Assembly: GCA_039030075.1 (NCBI GenBank)
Contig: JBCCEW010000010.1
Span: forward strand, 62,001-126,000
DNA length: 64,000 nt
Origin: Myxococcota bacterium
GTDB taxonomy: Bacteria; Myxococcota_A; UBA9160; SMWR01
Reading direction: 5' to 3'
Part shown: positions 31,431 through 39,317 of the stretch, piece after piece
How the letters are laid out: the number at the start of each line of letters is the position of its first letter
How positions within the stretch are numbered: position 1 is the stretch's first letter
Made by a program: the position numbers and the translations under genes
Notes under the pieces: generated by a model
The model's database searches: none
What the model saw: the letters and a program-made list of their open reading frames with translations, nothing else
What the model was told of the DNA's origin: nothing

Positions 31431-32114
31431 CTAGAAGCGGTAGCGCACGCCGACGATCTCCCAGCTGAAGTAGGAATGATCGCCGAAGAGTCCGTTCGGC
31501 ACGAAGTTCAGCAGCATCTGGGAATTGACCGACACGTCCTCGTTGATCGCGTACTCGAGGCCGACGCCCGTGTTCCAGAGGAACTGGAGATCGTCGTCGT
31601 CGCGACGCGGGCGCGGACGACCGTCGAAATCCTGGTAGTTGAAGCCGAGGCCGACGTGGCCGTAGGCGCTCAGCTTGTCGACGGTGTCGTTCACGTCGAA
31701 GTCGCCGCCGAACAGGTGGTAGCGGCCGTAGAGCACCGGGCTCAGCAGGCTCTGGTCGTCGTCGACGCCAACGTGGATCTGGGCGCCCACGGAGACCGCG
31801 CGCAGCACGTGGTAGTCGACCTCGAGTCCCATCAAGAACGTGTCCGGGTCAGCGGTGAAGCCGATCCCGAACCGGGTCGACAGCGGGCGCCGCTCGCGGT
31901 CCGAACCGGTGTCCGCGCTCCGGTCGTAGCTGCGGGTGCGCTCGGGCTCGGGGGTGTCCCACGGGTCGAGATCCTGGGCGCTCGACGCACCCGCACCCGC
32001 CACGACAGCCGCGATCGCAACCGCAGCGCTACTCCGGAGTCCACTCCCCACGAAACCCACCCGACCCGTCGTGTTCCGACGGGCCCGGATCCAATCAAGC
32101 AAACGCATCCTCAT
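31431..32114 (-). CDS. predicted outer-membrane beta-barrel protein
   Basis: A 227-residue protein with a long N-region and signal peptide (SSAAVAIAAVVAGAGASSAQ). Alternating-hydrophobicity strands follow, such as FLMGLEVDYHVLRAVSVGAQI, LLSPVLYGRYHLFG, LSAYGHVGLGFNY and WNTGVGLEYAINEDVSV, and the protein ends in an aromatic residue (GVRYRF). This fits a small eight-stranded OmpW/OmpA-like barrel. Acidic loops (DDDDLQ, GVDDDQ) could bind metal. It converges on the small gene at 31200 with a 15-bp gap. Ligand and function are unknown. Confidence 0.75.
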   Translation of the reverse strand: MRMRLLDWIRARRNTTGRVGFVGSGLRSSAAVAIAAVVAGAGASSAQDLDPWDTPEPERTRSYDRSADTGSDRERRPLSTRFGIGFTADPDTFLMGLEVDYHVLRAVSVGAQIHVGVDDDQSLLSPVLYGRYHLFGGDFDVNDTVDKLSAYGHVGLGFNYQDFDGRPRPRRDDDDLQFLWNTGVGLEYAINEDVSVNSQMLLNFVPNGLFGDHSYFSWEIVGVRYRF

Positions 32115-32183: not shown

Positions 32184-32882
32184 CTACTCGCGCTCGAGAC
32201 TCTGCTTTGCGCGCTCCGAGGCGTAGACAGCCTCGTCGGGGTCGTGGACGCGCTCCATTTCGTTGAGCACATGTTGCACGTGGTTGCGCATGGTGCCTAT
32301 GGCGTCGTCGTCGCTGGGGGCACGTGGCTCTCCGAAGATGACGGTGACCTCCGAGAACGGCAGCGGAATCTGGAGCCGATCCCAGGCCCCCGTCACCACG
32401 AAGCGTCGGGAGGGAACGAGCACGACCGGCAGCAGAACCGCGCCCTCCACCTCCTGGGCGAGCACCACGGCGCCGCGGCGCACGTAGCTCCGCGGGCCTC
32501 TCGGCCCGTCGACCGCCAACAACACGGCGATGCGCTGCTCGAGCTGATCGCGCAGCGCATCCATCGCCTCCATGCCGCCCTTGTCCTGGCCGCGCTTCTG
32601 GGACGAGCCGCGGACCGGATGCACCCCCCGCGCTTCCAGGATCGGCGCCAGGATGTCGCCGTCCGCCGAGCGCGACACCATCGCGGCCAGGCGCTGAGGG
32701 GCTTCGTCGTTCGCGACCAGGGCGGACAGCTGATGCGCGTGCAAGAGTGCGTAGACATACGGAGTGCCCGCCTCGCGCAGCGCGGAGCGCGGGTCGTCGA
32801 CGTAGCGGATCCGACAGGTGCGACGCCAGACGCGCATCAACACGCCCAGCCCCCAACCGAGCCAATGGCGCGGTCCTGCCAT
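32184..32882 (-). CDS. DUF374 lysophospholipid-acyltransferase-like protein
   Basis: A 232-residue protein whose core matches DUF374: YVYALLHAHQLSALVA (the His-containing block), VSRSADGDILAPILEARGV, VRGSSQKRG, GMEAMDALRDQLEQ and LLAVDGPRGPRSYVRRGAVVLAQ. DUF374 proteins are related to LpxL-type acyltransferases and to acyltransferases of lipid A or phospholipid pathways. Several have HxxxxD-like or HxxQ sites, and here the site reads HAHQLS. The N-terminal hydrophobic WLGWGLGVLMRVW may be membrane-associated. The start at the ATG at 32882 is the first good one after the upstream gene's end. The acyl donor is unknown. Confidence 0.8.
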   Translation of the reverse strand: MAGPRHWLGWGLGVLMRVWRRTCRIRYVDDPRSALREAGTPYVYALLHAHQLSALVANDEAPQRLAAMVSRSADGDILAPILEARGVHPVRGSSQKRGQDKGGMEAMDALRDQLEQRIAVLLAVDGPRGPRSYVRRGAVVLAQEVEGAVLLPVVLVPSRRFVVTGAWDRLQIPLPFSEVTVIFGEPRAPSDDDAIGTMRNHVQHVLNEMERVHDPDEAVYASERAKQSLERE

Positions 32883-32938: not shown

Positions 32939-34510
32939 CTAGCGGATGCGCGCGCGGTCCCGCCGCGAGCGCGCGAGCACGAGCACCAACGCGACGCCCC
33001 AGCCGAATCCACCGGGCTCGGGCAGCGGAAGCACGGTGCTGCCTCCCGCGGTGAAGGCGTCGATGCGGGTCTGCGCGCGTCGGGCTCCCGTAGCCGCGTC
33101 GATGTGATCGATCTCGCTGCGCCCGAGCACGCTGCCCTGGCGGACCAACTCGTCGGTCCAGCCGTTGTAGGCGAGCGACGCAGGGTTGCGAAACACGGTG
33201 TCGACGAGGGTCACGGTGCAGAGGACACCGGTGCAGTCGTCCGGGTCGACGCGGGCAAGGCCGGCCTCGGAAGCGAGATAAAGCAATCCCCGCTTCGAAT
33301 CGAAGGCAAGGCCCGTCACCCCATCGGGGACGATGTAGGTGTTCAGCTCCCCGAGCGCGGTCGTCGCCAACGTGACCGGATGGATCCGCAGCAGCTCGGT
33401 GATGCAGGCCGCGGCGGCCCCACAGTTGTGGGGGTTGCCGAAGATCTCGGCGTCCACCTGGGCCGCGTAGAGCCAGTCTTCGTTCGGGTCGTAGGCCAGG
33501 GCCTCGAGGCCGTCGAAGCCCAGCGGGGCCACGGTCACGCGCTGCCCCGTGACCGGGTGGAGCGTCACCAGGCCATCGTTCCCCGCCTTCCGCTCCAGAC
33601 CGAAGACGACGTGGCGATTGGGGTCGTAGGCCAACCCCGAGAGCTCGACACCGCCTCCGAACCCACCCGTGGCGCTCCAGCTTCCGTGTCGAACGTCCTG
33701 GGCGAGCCGCTCGTCGGTGACGAGGCCGTTCGCGGCACCGGGTCCCGCCGCGAGCCAGAGCTGCAGGTGCGGCCCCACCGCCGGCCCTTCGCAGGTGCCA
33801 CCGCTGCACACCTCGAACCCGCCTTGCTCCACGCAGGCCGTCCCGTTGCTGGCCGGCGCGTCGCCGAAGACGTCGGGCAAGCAAGCGCAGCTGCCGCCGG
33901 TGCCGCTCGCTTGGCTCGTGTACGCGCCGCATTCGAGGGAGGTGAGACACCCGCCGCCACTCGCGTCGCTCATCAACTCGCAGGCGTTTGCGGAAACGTG
34001 CCCGAGGCCCGCGTTGTGCCCGCGCTCATGGGCGATCACTTCGTCGAGAAAGAAGTTGTCGTCGGCTTCGCGTCCGACGATCAGGACGTCGCCGGGCTGC
34101 TCGGCGCAGCCGCGGATGCCCGTGCTCGCCACGCCGCCGCAGAAGTGCACCGTGTCGACCAGATAGGCGCCGGGCGCCGACGCGAAGAGCGCTGCCACCT
34201 CGGCGCCACTCGTGATGTGATCGAAGCCGTCGCCGCAGACGCCGAAGGCGGAGACCGTCGCGGCCTCGAGCGTCACACAACAGCCGCCATCGACCGGGCC
34301 GTGCTCACCCTGCAAGAGCCCGCGGCCCTCGGCCAGGCGCGCGTCGATCAGGGCCTCGTAGTGCGGCAGCCCGTCCGCGTTCACCAGACACTGGTGGACG
34401 TAGAAGTCGATCGGGTCGGTCGCTTCGGTGGGTGCGGCGAACGCCGCCACACTTCCCGCGAACAGCGCCAGGAGCACCCACGCGCCGACGCGCATGCGAC
34501 GCGCACCCAT
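32939..34510 (-). CDS. secreted metzincin-type zinc protease-like protein with PEP-CTERM tail (module copy 2)
   Basis: A 523-residue exported protein. A signal peptide (1-26) is followed by a protease-like domain with a perfect HExxHxxGxxH zinc motif, HERGHNAGLGH at 161-171, and a candidate Met-turn at Met180 (NACELM). A Cys-rich linker comes next (about 190-245: SCACLPDV, NGTACVEQ, VCSGGTCEG), then a region with repeated LAYDPNR, LAYDPNE and LAFDSKRG strands that looks like a beta-propeller. The end LPEPGGFGWGVALVLVLAR plus a basic tail is PEP-CTERM-like. The start is fixed by TGATG: the ATG at 34510 shares a base with the stop of the helical-repeat gene, implying coupled translation. It is a paralogue of the gene at 35239. 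Substrate is unknown. Confidence 0.8.
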   Translation of the reverse strand: MGARRMRVGAWVLLALFAGSVAAFAAPTEATDPIDFYVHQCLVNADGLPHYEALIDARLAEGRGLLQGEHGPVDGGCCVTLEAATVSAFGVCGDGFDHITSGAEVAALFASAPGAYLVDTVHFCGGVASTGIRGCAEQPGDVLIVGREADDNFFLDEVIAHERGHNAGLGHVSANACELMSDASGGGCLTSLECGAYTSQASGTGGSCACLPDVFGDAPASNGTACVEQGGFEVCSGGTCEGPAVGPHLQLWLAAGPGAANGLVTDERLAQDVRHGSWSATGGFGGGVELSGLAYDPNRHVVFGLERKAGNDGLVTLHPVTGQRVTVAPLGFDGLEALAYDPNEDWLYAAQVDAEIFGNPHNCGAAAACITELLRIHPVTLATTALGELNTYIVPDGVTGLAFDSKRGLLYLASEAGLARVDPDDCTGVLCTVTLVDTVFRNPASLAYNGWTDELVRQGSVLGRSEIDHIDAATGARRAQTRIDAFTAGGSTVLPLPEPGGFGWGVALVLVLARSRRDRARIR

Positions 34511-35148
34511 CAGGGAAGCGGCGACCGCGCTGCTCGATCCCGCAACGCCGAAGCCGCGTGGTCCGGAGCCACGCCATCGCGGACCAGGCCCTCGAGCACG
34601 CCGTCCGCAGCGGCCGACCGCGACTGCCCCAGCCCGGCGATCGCCATCTCGGCGATCAAACGCTCGAGAGCCGGCCGGGCGAGGTGGCGATAGTGAGCTT
34701 CGACAGCGGGTTGCCGCGCCATCTTCGACAAATCTCTCAAGGCCCGCGGATCCTCCGCGGCGAGGTGGCCGAGGGCGATCGGTACCGCCAGGCACGCTCG
34801 GAACGCCGCGGGTTCGAGCTCGCCGGGACCGAGCTGGGCGGCGTAGGCCGAGATCGCCTCGTAGGCCCCCGGGTGCCCGGCCATTCCAAGGACCTCGAGC
34901 GCCGCCGCGTGGGTCTCGAGCTCGTCCGGATCGTCCAGCAGGGCCGTCAGCTGGGCGGTGTCGTCGGGGCGGAGCGCCGCAACCGCCTCGGCGGGGAAGC
35001 CCTCGTAGAACGGAGTTCGGACGAGCCACTCGGCCGATCCCTTGCCGCCGGGCTCGGCGCCAGCGGAGGCGCCCAGGAGCAACGCCAGGGCCATCGCCCA
35101 GCGGACGCACCCCTCCCGCAAGCCCCTGATTTTCCGCGACTCCGGCAT
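34510..35148 (-). CDS. secreted HEAT-like helical-repeat protein (module copy 2)
   Basis: A 212-residue protein with a signal-like segment VRWAMALALLLGASAGA and then paired amphipathic helices like HEAT repeats (LTALLDDPDELETHAAALEVL, GMAGHPGAYEAISAYAAQLG). It shares with the protein at 36867 the order YEG-P-E, LL-DP-E, HA-LG-G-PG, FRA, ALG-LA, DPRAL-L-M, so the two are paralogues. It ends in TGATG with the protease-like gene. The start could be the ATG at 35148 or a nearer ATG (WAMAL) closer to the hydrophobic run; neither has a strong ribosome site. It may be a chaperone, inhibitor or binding partner of the adjacent protein; this is inference from the repeated pairing. Confidence 0.72.
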   Translation of the reverse strand: MPESRKIRGLREGCVRWAMALALLLGASAGAEPGGKGSAEWLVRTPFYEGFPAEAVAALRPDDTAQLTALLDDPDELETHAAALEVLGMAGHPGAYEAISAYAAQLGPGELEPAAFRACLAVPIALGHLAAEDPRALRDLSKMARQPAVEAHYRHLARPALERLIAEMAIAGLGQSRSAAADGVLEGLVRDGVAPDHAASALRDRAARSPLP

Positions 35149-35238
35149 CAGGAGTGGGTGGTCCTGAACCCGTCGAAGCTCTCCGAAAATCGGCGCCGGT
35201 GGTTCGCTGGCGATCGATTTCCCGGGGCCCGGACTCCC

Positions 35239-36870
35239 CTAGGGGGTGCCGCGTCGCCGCCGCGCGAGCGCCAGCAGCAACCCCGCCCCGGCCAGCACCC
35301 CGCTCGCGGTACTCGGTTCGGGGAGCGCTGCCAGCGCACCCGGGAAGAACGGGTCGACGTTGTAGACCTCGGGGCTCGCAAAGGTGGTGGTGTCGATCGA
35401 CTGGACGAAGGTCCGCGTACCGCCGAAGCCCGTCCCGACCATGTACAGCCGGCCCGACACCGGCGAGTAGGCCAACCCGGCCTGGGCCCGGAACAGCCCC
35501 GCCCCGGACACCTGCGCGATGTTGCACGGCGAAGGCGGACAGTTCGCGATGTCGACTTCCCAGAGCCCGTCCGGCCCGAAGTTCGAGGACATGAAGAGCT
35601 TGTCCTGGATGCTGTCGTAGGCGAGCCCCCGGAACTCGGTGGCCGGGCCGACGAGCAAGGACCCGAGGAAGGTCGCCGTCGACGGCGACGCAGGGTCGAT
35701 CGACCGGAACTCCGAGGACCCCCCGACTTCCAGCACGATCAGCCGATCGTCAGTGGTGGCCGAGGTCGCGCCCGGGTCGTAGGCCATCGAGGTGATCTCG
35801 TCGGCGCCGTTCGCGATCGCGCCAACCGTCGCGAGGATCGCGCCGGTGGTCTTGTCGAGCGTCACGATCGCGTCGTCGGCGGCCGTCGGAACCACGCCGT
35901 AGAGCACGTCGGAGTCGAAGGCATAGGCCATGCCCTTGATCTCTTCGCTGGTCGCCGCGAAGGGTCCGAGCTCGGTCCAGTCGGCTGGGAGCGCCGAGAT
36001 CCGGACGGCATCGTCGGTGGTCCCCGACGACGAAGCCGAGCCCGTCGCGGCCGACGTGATCAGCTGCACCGCTGCGTCCCCGGTGGACACACCACAGACA
36101 CCGCCGCTGCAGACGCCGCTTGCGACGTCGGTGCAGGCCGTGCCATCCGGCTCGTTTGCGCCGGCGAGGGTGTGACAACCACAGGTGAGCCCACTCGAGG
36201 TCGTGGTGCGGCCGGCCTGCATGTTGGTGCACTCGCTGGCCGTGAAGCAGCCACCCAGGCCCGGGTTCGTGACCGTCGCCTGCATGATCTGGCAGGCGTT
36301 CGCCGCGACATGGTTGAGACACGCGTTGTGGCCCCGCTCGTGGGCGAGCACGGTGCCCAGGGTGCCGCTCTCGAAGGAATCGACGGTGACGATCAGCCAG
36401 CGATTCGGATCGTCGTTGCCGTTGCCGTCACAGAAAGGCGTCTCCGCGCAGCCGACCGCCGGACTCCCGCCACAGTTGGTGATGCTGTCGACGAGATACG
36501 CGTTCGAGCTCGGGACGGCCAGGGCATCGATCGCGGCGGTCTCCGCGGCGGAGTCGATGATGTCGAGCCCGTCGCCGGGAGTCCCGAAGGTGGCCACGGA
36601 CACCGTCCGGTTCATGCGCGTGCAGCAGATGTTGTCGAAGGGCCCCTGCCCGCCTTCGAGCAGCTTGTTGCCCGTCGTGGTGGCCTGATCGATCGCGGCT
36701 TCCCAGAACGCGAGATCGCGCCCGGCGCCGGCGTCGATGAGATCGACGTGAACGAACCAGCGCAGGGTATGGAGATCGACGTCTTGCGCCGTGGCCGTTT
36801 CCGGTGCCATCGCGCCGAACGCGGCGCACGCCGTCGCGAGGGTCGCTGCGAGTCGCGGGAACCGGCTCAT
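35239..36870 (-). CDS. secreted metzincin-like protein with altered zinc motif and PEP-CTERM tail (module copy 1)
   Basis: A 543-residue paralogue of the protein at 32939. A signal peptide ends near residue 29. The zinc-motif region reads HERGHNACLNH at 177-187: the three His and the Glu remain but the usual Gly is Cys184. A candidate Met-turn is Met196 (NACQIM). A Cys-rich linker (CGCHTLAGANEPDGTACTD, VCSGGVCG) and a propeller-like part (MAYAFDSDVLYGVV, LAYDSIQDKLFMSS, LAYSPVSGRLYMVG) follow. The end is a textbook PEP-CTERM signal: LPEPSTASGVLAGAGLLLAL then RRRRGTP. It overlaps the upstream helical-repeat gene by ATGA, and the gap to copy 2 is 90 bp. The Cys may bind zinc, pair with another Cys or mark loss of activity. 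Confidence 0.8.
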   Translation of the reverse strand: MSRFPRLAATLATACAAFGAMAPETATAQDVDLHTLRWFVHVDLIDAGAGRDLAFWEAAIDQATTTGNKLLEGGQGPFDNICCTRMNRTVSVATFGTPGDGLDIIDSAAETAAIDALAVPSSNAYLVDSITNCGGSPAVGCAETPFCDGNGNDDPNRWLIVTVDSFESGTLGTVLAHERGHNACLNHVAANACQIMQATVTNPGLGGCFTASECTNMQAGRTTTSSGLTCGCHTLAGANEPDGTACTDVASGVCSGGVCGVSTGDAAVQLITSAATGSASSSGTTDDAVRISALPADWTELGPFAATSEEIKGMAYAFDSDVLYGVVPTAADDAIVTLDKTTGAILATVGAIANGADEITSMAYDPGATSATTDDRLIVLEVGGSSEFRSIDPASPSTATFLGSLLVGPATEFRGLAYDSIQDKLFMSSNFGPDGLWEVDIANCPPSPCNIAQVSGAGLFRAQAGLAYSPVSGRLYMVGTGFGGTRTFVQSIDTTTFASPEVYNVDPFFPGALAALPEPSTASGVLAGAGLLLALARRRRGTP

Positions 36871-37508
36871 CGGGCGCTCTCCTGGCGGACGCGCAGATCG
36901 GCGCGCGCATCATCGAGATGGGAACGGAGCCCCGGGTCGGACGCGGCTTCGGACGCGCGCTGGAGCATCGCAGCGGCCGCGGGAAGCCCGGTGGAAGACA
37001 GGGCCGTCACCGCACCGCGCTTGCACTGCATCTGGATCCGTTCCGCCGTGTGGTGGCGGAAGCTCCAGCCCACCTCTTCGCCGTCGAGCATCGCGCCCAG
37101 GCGCTGCAGGGCGCGGGGATCGGACTCGGCGAGGGCTCCCAACGCGAAGGGCATGGCCTGCCAGGCGCGGAAGATGTCGCGGTCGACCTCGCCGCTGGGC
37201 GGGTTCCCGGCGTAGGCCAACACCGCTTCGGCCGAGCCCGGCTGGCCCGAGTAGCCCAGGGCCAGGAGGACGTTGGCGTGGATCGCCTTCTCGGCGGGAT
37301 CGGCCAGAAGGGTGGCCAGGTGTGCAGCGCCATCGGCATCGATCTGCGCGGCTTCTTCCTCGGGAAGCCCCTCGTACCAGGTGCTCCGCACCATGTTCTC
37401 GGCTTCATCCGGGCCCAGGGCCGTGGCAGGCGCCGTCGCGCCCAGGAGCCCCGTGACCAGGAGCACCGCGAACGCCCACCGCCGCGGCATGGATCGTGAC
37501 CTGCGCAT
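36867..37508 (-). CDS. secreted HEAT-like helical-repeat protein (module copy 1)
   Basis: A 213-residue exported protein. The ATG at 37508 has a GGAGGG site five bases upstream, and the signal peptide is MPRRWAFAVLLVTGLLGATA. The mature part is helical and Ala-rich, with HEAT-like pairs (HLATLLADPAEKAIHANVLL, ALGYSGQPGSAEAVLAYAG, DPRALQRLGAML) that match the protein at 34510 in order and spacing. Its stop overlaps the following metzincin-like gene by ATGA. It is the first gene of the four-gene block; the 145-bp divergent gap to coq4 (37509-37653) should hold its promoter. Function is unknown; the fixed pairing with a protease-like protein suggests a joint task outside the cytoplasm. Confidence 0.77.
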   Translation of the reverse strand: MRRSRSMPRRWAFAVLLVTGLLGATAPATALGPDEAENMVRSTWYEGLPEEEAAQIDADGAAHLATLLADPAEKAIHANVLLALGYSGQPGSAEAVLAYAGNPPSGEVDRDIFRAWQAMPFALGALAESDPRALQRLGAMLDGEEVGWSFRHHTAERIQMQCKRGAVTALSSTGLPAAAAMLQRASEAASDPGLRSHLDDARADLRVRQESAR

Positions 37509-37653: not shown

Positions 37654-38373
37654 ATGCCCGCGGCCCCGATTCATTGGTCGATTCCGTCCGGTTCTCGTTT
37701 CTGGCGAACCGGGCAGGCGATCACGCGGGTCCTCCGCGACTCGACGCGCACCGACGAGATCGTCGTGGCCGAAGAAATCCTGGCCCAGAGGCAGCTCCGC
37801 TATTGGGTCGAATCGGGGGTGTTCGAGTACGGAGAAGGTCGCGCGCTCTTCGAAGACCGCCCCGAGATCTGCCAGACCTCGGTCGACGACCTGCGCGCCC
37901 TCGCGGAGGGCACGTTGGGACGCGAATTTGCCCGCTTCCTCGACTTCCACGGGCTCGGCCTCGAGGCCCTCGACCTTCCCGCCCCCTACACGCCCGGCGA
38001 AGCCGAGGCCTATCTGATGAAGCGTCTGCGCGGCTGCCACGACATCTGGCACACGCTGATCGGCGCCGGGACGCACGGACACGAAGAGGTCCTCGTCCAT
38101 TGCTTCAGCGTGGCCCAGACCGGCCTGCCCTATTCCGTGGCAATCATCGGGCTCGGCGCGATCAAGCCCATGGTCCTGGAGGGTCGCTGGTCGACACTCC
38201 TGCGCGACACCCGTCGGGCGTACCGCTGCGGTCGCGACGCACGCTCCATCCTGACCGCATACTGGGAGCGACGCTGGGACCAGCCGCTGGACGAGGTCCG
38301 GCGCGAGTTCGGGATCGTGCCGCTCCAGGAACTCGCCTTGCCTTCCGACACGGCTCCGCGCGCCGCCGCCTGA
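37654..38373 (+). CDS. Coq4 family protein
   Basis: A 239-residue protein preceded by an ideal AGGAGGTGAC ribosome site. The metal-binding Coq4 motif HDxxHx11E is present: HDIWH at 129-133 with Glu145 (LIGAGTHGHEEV). Coq4 organises the ubiquinone-synthesis complex in mitochondria and was recently linked to C1 oxidative decarboxylation of the quinone ring. Bacterial homologues occur in alphaproteobacteria and scattered lineages, some in contexts unrelated to ubiquinone. No other ubi genes are in the window. It is alone on the plus strand, divergent from the secreted module, and ends 21 bp before the convergent anti-sigma gene. A role in quinone metabolism is likely but not shown. Confidence 0.83.
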   Translation: MPAAPIHWSIPSGSRFWRTGQAITRVLRDSTRTDEIVVAEEILAQRQLRYWVESGVFEYGEGRALFEDRPEICQTSVDDLRALAEGTLGREFARFLDFHGLGLEALDLPAPYTPGEAEAYLMKRLRGCHDIWHTLIGAGTHGHEEVLVHCFSVAQTGLPYSVAIIGLGAIKPMVLEGRWSTLLRDTRRAYRCGRDARSILTAYWERRWDQPLDEVRREFGIVPLQELALPSDTAPRAAA

Positions 38374-38394: not shown

Positions 38395-38655
38395 CTACGG
38401 AAGCGGAGCGGCGACGTCCCGCAGCAGGTCTCTCAGCAGGGCGTACTCCTCGGCGCACTCGGGGCACTGGGAGAGGTGGGTCTCGATGCGCACCAGCGCT
38501 TCGGGGATCGCTGCGCCCAGGAGCTTCGTCTCGGCGAACTCGGCGAGGCCACGCAGGCAGCCGTCGCAATCGAGTTCGTCCTCTCGGGTATCTACCACCC
38601 AGGAGAGGAGCGTACGGATCTTCGGAGCATCCAGTCGTCCCATGCCGTTCCTCAC
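38395..38655 (-). CDS. small zinc-finger anti-sigma-like protein
   Basis: An 86-residue soluble protein with a HxxxCxxC zinc-binding anti-sigma motif (HLSQCPEC, His60, Cys64, Cys67) and an extra CDGC pair (Cys30, Cys33). It has no transmembrane helix, so it would be a cytoplasmic anti-sigma factor, perhaps redox-sensing like ZAS proteins such as RsrA. The GTG at 38655 overlaps the sigma stop (GTGA), which supports co-translation; an ATG at 38643 is an alternative. It probably binds and holds the sigma factor encoded just upstream. The spacing of its cysteines differs from RsrA, so a redox switch is only a possibility. Confidence 0.8.
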   Translation of the reverse strand: MRNGMGRLDAPKIRTLLSWVVDTREDELDCDGCLRGLAEFAETKLLGAAIPEALVRIETHLSQCPECAEEYALLRDLLRDVAAPLP

Positions 38656-39317
38656 GAGAAGGCCGCGCGAATCGCGCTGGCGTCGAAGCCGGCGGCTTCC
38701 AGGCCATGCTTCAGCTTCTTGCGCGCGTCGAAGGTCAGTTTGTAGACGGCGTTCCGCGTGACGCCCAGCTGTTCCCCGATCTCGGCCTGGGGCATGCCCC
38801 CGAGTTCGGCCAGGATCGCCACCCGCTGTCGTTCGCTCAGCGCGGACTCCACGAGTTCTTCCAGTGCCCGCACGAGACGGGTCTGGTGGAGCCGCGCCTC
38901 GGCCTCGGGGGGCTCGACCGCAGCGTCCGCAGAGGCGCCTTCCGACAACAACGTATCGAGCGAGACGTCCTTCCAGCGCTTGCGACGCAGTTCGGTCAGC
39001 GCGAGACGGACCGCGATCGTGGCGGCCCAGGTCGTGAAGCGACTGCGGCCCTCGAAGGCGTCGAGCTGGTCGAGCACGCGCAGCAGCGCGTCCTGCACGA
39101 CGTCCTCGATCAGTTCGGTCGGCGCCGCGCCTTCGCGGCCGAGCCGCGAGGTCAGCGCGCGCCGCAGGTAGTCACCGAGCGCCTCGAGTGCCCGCGCCTG
39201 GACTGCGCCCTCCGTGCGTAGCGCGAGCAACCAGTCCGCGTTGTCCCGTACGGGTGCGTCCGATCCCGCGTGACCCGGAGTCGGGGTTTCCTTCGAGAGT
39301 GCAGAGAGAGAGTGCAC
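38652..39317 (-). CDS. ECF-type RNA polymerase sigma factor
   Basis: A 221-residue sigma-70-family factor with regions 2 and 4 only. Region 2 spans about 70-115 (LIEDVVQDALLRVLDQLDAF, RFTTWAATIAVRLALTELRR) and region 4 about 155-205 (LVESALSERQRVAILAELG, then the HTH AEIGEQLGVTRNAVYKLTFDA). It is followed at once by a zinc-finger anti-sigma-like gene, the standard arrangement. It starts at a GTG at 39317 without a strong ribosome site. It is divergent from the YHS-domain gene across 152 bp, which makes that gene a likely target. On the minus strand GTAACCC at 39345-39351 resembles an ECF -35, with CGAA about 17 bases further; this is weak. Confidence 0.9.
   Translation of the reverse strand: MHSLSALSKETPTPGHAGSDAPVRDNADWLLALRTEGAVQARALEALGDYLRRALTSRLGREGAAPTELIEDVVQDALLRVLDQLDAFEGRSRFTTWAATIAVRLALTELRRKRWKDVSLDTLLSEGASADAAVEPPEAEARLHQTRLVRALEELVESALSERQRVAILAELGGMPQAEIGEQLGVTRNAVYKLTFDARKKLKHGLEAAGFDASAIRAAFS

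Follow-up and report, generated by a model that had tools for sequence, protein, structure and literature searches.

The window, the whole stretch of 64,000 nucleotides analyzed here, comes from a Myxococcota bacterium and contains two neighboring gene pairs, both on the minus strand and arranged as A1-B1-A2-B2 (Table 1). In each pair, the first gene (A) encodes a HEAT-like protein and the second gene (B) encodes a predicted metzincin. An earlier annotation made from the nucleotide sequence alone, henceforth called the sequence-only reading, had described four genes with overlapping A/B junctions in both pairs, and the positions of the open reading frames bear this out. The gap between B1 and A2 measures 90 nt. 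Signal peptides are evident by hydrophobicity in A1, B1, A2 and B2.

Just downstream of B2, and on the same strand, lie genes for a DUF374 protein (32184-32882) and for an outer-membrane beta-barrel protein (31431-32114), both possibly co-transcribed. The upstream neighbors are a Coq4-like gene on the plus strand (37726-38373) and, on the minus strand, genes for a small zinc-finger protein (38395-38655) and an ECF sigma factor (38652-39317).

Table 1. Genes and features of the two A/B pairs (positions in the window).
Feature	Position	Strand	Description and basis
A1	36867..37508	-	secreted HEAT-solenoid protein (predicted), 213 aa; signal peptide followed by a helical domain of ~181 aa; HEAT_2 E 2e-4, AlphaFold model
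A1, modelled part	36870-37412		helical domain
B1	35239..36870	-	secreted metzincin (predicted), 543 aa; Cys-rich stretch, propeller-like repeats, PEP-CTERM end
A1/B1 junction	36867..36870	-	4-nt overlap, ATGA
B1 zinc site	36310..36342	-	HERGHNACLNH (Gly8 to Cys); sequence, alignment of relatives
B1 Met-turn	~36283-36294	-	CQIM, after the zinc site
B1 Cys-rich stretch	36094..36249	-	C-terminal to the catalytic domain; conserved Cys in the alignment
B1 propeller-like repeat region	35335..36069	-	weak: SdiA-regulated E 0.009
B1 PEP-CTERM sorting end	35251..35322	-	TIGR02595, 16.6 bits, cut-off 16
A2	34510..35148	-	second, diverged HEAT-like secreted protein, 212 aa
B2	32939..34510	-	second secreted metzincin (predicted), 523 aa; PEP-CTERM-like end
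A2/B2 junction	34510..34510	-	1-nt overlap, TGATG
B2 zinc site	33998..34030	-	HERGHNAGLGH (canonical HExxHxxGxxH), then Met-turn CELM; sequence, alignment
B2 PEP-CTERM-like end	32942..33031	-	LPLPEP, hydrophobic stretch, basic end; by eye, below model cut-offs

Predicted folds of the A and B proteins

The B2 protein carries a full HExxHxxGxxH motif and a Met-turn; B1 carries the same elements with Cys in place of Gly at position 8. The His, Glu and His residues of the zinc site are kept in all 51 B sequences used for tree building, and position 8 is occupied by Gly in 31, Cys in 19 and Arg in one. The Met of the Met-turn is invariant in alignments A3 and A6 and is present in nearly all B relatives; one relative (L172) appears to lack the turn.

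When the catalytic domain of B1 was modelled with AlphaFold from a 24-row alignment, the mean pLDDT was 75, with the last 30 residues poorly modelled. The best PDB matches of this model are adamalysin, ADAM, ADAMTS and ulilysin. Foldseek returned E 1e-6 to ADAM-8, and superposition on atrolysin C with VIA gave Z 17.0 and an rmsd of 2.8 over 174 residues, with 14% identity. The sequence-only reading had called B metzincin-like, and the predicted fold of B1 agrees with that assignment. Judging from the zinc motif, the Met-turn and the model, B is a metzincin of clan MA(M). Profile searches, which had been proposed as a check, gave a divided answer: Pfam metzincin models do match B, but below their cut-offs. 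B2 missed the cut-off of the reprolysin model PF13583 (17.6 bits versus 22), B1 had no reprolysin match in Pfam, and some fused relatives lie just above the cut-off of PF13582. The likeness to adamalysin/reprolysin (M12B) and other metzincins extends over the predicted fold (Z up to 17), the HExxHxxGxxH motif, the Met-turn and a Cys-rich stretch after the catalytic domain. However, B shares 10-18% identity with these metzincins, the proteins of the window fall below the Pfam M12B cut-offs, one clade has Cys instead of Gly8, and a HEAT partner is present.

B1 and B2 had also been said to share a signal peptide, propeller-like strands and a PEP-CTERM end. The signal peptide, the zinc site and the PEP-CTERM-type end are seen in both proteins, with the provisos that Gly8 is Cys in B1 and that the end of B2 was recognized by eye; the propeller is a weak assignment, with weak matches only (SdiA-regulated, E 0.009; DUF6923, E 0.055). 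The PEP-CTERM end of B1 passed the NCBIfam model TIGR02595 (16.6 versus 16 bits) and just missed the Pfam model (20.1 versus 20.7 bits). A PEP/PAP motif followed by a hydrophobic stretch and a basic end was found in 17 of the 23 B proteins from split pairs with an intact end. Exosortase (EpsH, PF09721) has four matches in the genome that harbors the window and is present in 81 of the 91 genomes of the class. The C-terminal region of B differs from relative to relative (propeller plus PEP-CTERM, TSP3/dockerin-like or Cys-rich), whereas its metzincin domain and A are retained. No copy of B other than B1 and B2 was found in the genome. One protein encoded outside the window (G000:C10:141267-141833) gave a weak match limited to the propeller/PEP-CTERM part of B.

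All 19 sequences with Cys at position 8, B1 included, have one extra Cys in an insert that precedes the motif (PxCxGNxNDDP). The remaining sequences of the 51 lack the substitution and likewise lack the extra Cys, except for one (L137). Because the 19 carriers sit close together on the B tree, both changes are probably the result of a single event. A disulfide bond between Cys8 and the extra Cys, beside the zinc site, is predicted as likely.

For A1, the AlphaFold model (25-row alignment) is almost entirely helical and has a mean pLDDT of 97.2 and a pTM of 0.91. The predicted structure is a solenoid of antiparallel helix pairs, in keeping with the HEAT-like character previously attributed to A. 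In the PDB, it most closely resembles alphaRep and other HEAT-like repeats (VIA Z up to 13); values around 13 are common among helical repeats and thus support the fold of A, not a function. In Pfam, A1 missed the HEAT cut-off (21.8 versus 27.7 bits) and A2 had no HEAT match; a fused relative (L096) passes the HEAT model with 30.3 bits.

Linkage, fusion and ancestry of A and B

The B gene is present in 25 of the 91 genomes of the class, and A is also present in all 25. Except at loci broken by contig ends, A lies directly upstream of B in every one of them. Use of A as query retrieved 29 genomes of the class, and the four additional ones contain B-A fusions (G031, G061 and G062) or an A gene cut by a contig end (G032). 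A further metzincin match (G058) is the start of a protein of the B-A type, interrupted by a contig end. The 26 split A/B junctions, which include one pair from Acidobacteriota, overlap by exactly 4 nt in 24 cases (ATGA or GTGA) and by 1 nt in two. Linkage of A and B had been set beforehand as a test, as had the fold of B, and the outcome was 25 of 25 genomes and 26 of 26 overlapping split pairs, with fusions elsewhere.

Fusions in the A-B order within one open reading frame were found in other Myxococcota (G020, G262, G276 and G296). In Acidobacteriota, 11 of 247 genomes gave a match; nine of these are A-B fusions and one (G453) is a split pair. The B-A order is found in the three genomes of the class mentioned above and in a contig filed as viral (L137). 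Fusions have a single N-terminal export signal, with a lipobox in seven (partly judged by eye), and those of the A-B type have a sizeable linker after the N-terminal A. A tandem A-B-A'-B' arrangement was detected in G049 (L119:7926-10394, plus strand), where no stop codon separates B from A' and the two share one reading frame. This read-through may be real or may reflect a sequence error.

Relatives of B without detectable A were also found (L135/L183, and L182, which lies beside an assembly gap). Because such metzincins exist in the wider family, the catalytic fold does not need A in every lineage. In one of them (L183, from the Acidobacteriota genome G380), FG-GAP-like repeats precede the B relative instead. 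Two genomes with weak metzincin matches and no A (G150 and G349) were discarded as members, as their proteins look like other metzincins. A third conserved gene was also sought by comparing flanking open reading frames all-against-all. Among the clusters listed, only A and B (plus overlapping open reading frames) span many loci; the remaining clusters track closely related genomes, and many contigs are short. No plasmid-borne relatives of the module were found, nor were relatives found in GenBank phage records. Sequence searches of solved structures yielded none with both domains, and the metzincin parts alone were matched.

The similarity between the two pairs of the window is far beyond chance: B1 and B2 share 36-37% identity (E 2.8e-49), and A1 and A2 share ~40% (tblastn E 1e-22 to 6e-26). 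The split pairs of the class are monophyletic in the B tree (SH-aLRT 99); B1 is placed with pairs of another family and B2 with G039. In the A tree, A1 falls inside the matching clade of 12 genomes. AU tests rejected B1 and B2 as sisters (p 0.001) and also A1 and A2 (p 0.03). The sequence-only reading had described one duplicated pair; the relatedness of A1 to A2 and of B1 to B2 is upheld, but a recent local duplication of one pair is ruled out. Because the sister groupings are rejected, the tree topologies indicate that the neighboring pairs are old paralogs that now lie next to each other. Pair 1 may have been acquired whole from a source outside the family. The A and B trees correlate (mirror-tree r 0.77, 0/5000 shuffles), an agreement that partly reflects common species ancestry.

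A proposed two-part secreted metalloprotease

A and B are neighbors in almost every case, and other bacteria and one phage carry natural fusions of the two. It is therefore very probable that they function as a single enzyme, seemingly of an undescribed type. Cooperation between A and B had been proposed from the locus itself, and it now draws support from linkage, overlapping junctions and fusions in both orders. The view that A and B are merely co-expressed neighbors that make no contact is highly improbable, as all 26 split pairs overlap and fusions in both orders occur in two phyla and a phage.

Our main reading, to which we assign a probability of about 0.5, is that A and B are the two halves of a secreted metalloprotease, with A as a standing subunit whose task is to hold or gate the substrate. 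Translation from two coupled genes would permit that A is made first and in an amount equal to B. The HEAT solenoid would be exported together with B, which carries an adamalysin-like metzincin catalytic domain, and most B members would probably be anchored at the surface or sorted by exosortase. A would dock on the catalytic domain of B and stay there, and its solenoid surface might hold or gate a protein substrate. Since A is retained along with the catalytic domain whatever the C-terminal region of B contains, the domain that A serves is most likely the catalytic one. The existence of covalent fusions in both orders argues that A can remain attached in the mature protein, and such fusions favor a standing subunit.

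A chaperone or inhibitor role for A, as put forward in the sequence-only reading, is less probable, since a standing subunit accounts better for the permanent fusions seen in both orders. If A were a dedicated periplasmic chaperone or escort, it would bind B until secretion or sorting and would then be left behind. Several observations suit this possibility: A is always encoded first in split pairs and is coupled to B, export signals are found on A and B alike, and adjacent, specific chaperones of secreted metallopeptidases are known. CpaB of Acinetobacter, a chaperone anchored in the membrane and predicted to contain an SRPBCC domain, is required for secretion of CpaA (PMC4713064), and A/B resembles CpaA/CpaB in that a secreted metallopeptidase has an adjacent specific partner. 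Unlike CpaB, however, A is predicted to be a HEAT solenoid, has a signal peptide of the cleavable type but no other membrane anchor, gives no SRPBCC match in Pfam, and is also found fused to the protease. As fusions in both orders would leave A in the mature protein, we consider a CpaB-like role somewhat unlikely.

We deem it unlikely too that A acts on B as its cognate inhibitor, or as a prodomain in trans, in which case B would be silent until A is removed. A close parallel is provided by Mep72 of Pseudomonas aeruginosa, whose neighbor-encoded partner BamI binds Mep72 and relieves its toxicity (PMC4334185). As in A/B, Mep72 is a secreted metzincin with a binding partner from the adjacent gene and with extra non-catalytic domains. 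The two systems are set apart by description: Mep72 has two carbohydrate-binding domains, and the portion of the published account considered here describes neither a HEAT solenoid partner nor a fused form. The first position of A in split pairs would fit an inhibitor, and in A-B fusions A occupies the usual place of a prodomain, followed by the linker. In B-A fusions, however, A is C-terminal, which is unusual for a prodomain, and the A alignment contains no conserved Cys fit for a cysteine switch. The reading of A as a standing subunit is retained as the preferred one.

Helical domains beside zinc peptidases have precedents. M1 aminopeptidases have HEAT-like caps; in M9 collagenases, the peptidase is a gluzincin and the activator domain is HEAT-like. 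A/B may work in a way comparable to M9 enzymes such as ColG and VhaC, whose full activity depends on a helical non-catalytic domain that binds the substrate. In contrast with B, a predicted metzincin, the M9 enzymes have an unrelated peptidase fold, and they are made as one polypeptide. The role of their activator domain is to bind collagen and unwind it for the peptidase domain (PMC8799719, PMC11032491). A further comparison is Listeria Mtz/Tim, where a phage-derived metzincin adjoins its partner, just as one phage contig has the A/B module in fused form; Mtz appears to cleave Tim, a TIMP-like protein (PMC8235301), whereas A is a predicted HEAT solenoid.

Metzincins with a dedicated neighbor are therefore already known. 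In the open-licence papers searched, no metzincin was found whose HEAT-solenoid partner is encoded separately or fused to it in both orders, and nothing on this module came up when metzincins or metalloproteases were sought together with HEAT repeats and PEP-CTERM. A tentative proposal, to which we give a little less than even odds, is that the module represents an undescribed class of secreted metalloprotease, found in Myxococcota, Acidobacteriota and a phage, in which a HEAT solenoid acts as a detachable subunit that activates the metzincin or grips its substrate, either split or fused in both orders. Accessory parts often set what a metzincin cuts, and a separable helical-repeat partner that is fused on either side in nature would be a clean system for the study of solenoid control of a metzincin. 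Many surface proteins of environmental Myxococcota and Acidobacteriota that lack an annotation could also be named on this basis.

Use of the same enzyme by a phage is hinted at by the contig filed as viral (L137/L158, IMGVR_UViG_3300031991_000103). Because it encodes an integrase, a terminase, a portal, a head protease and a major head protein, it looks like a real temperate-phage record. Its B-A fusion is membrane-anchored and is encoded just upstream of the terminase (L158:10013-11374, plus strand).
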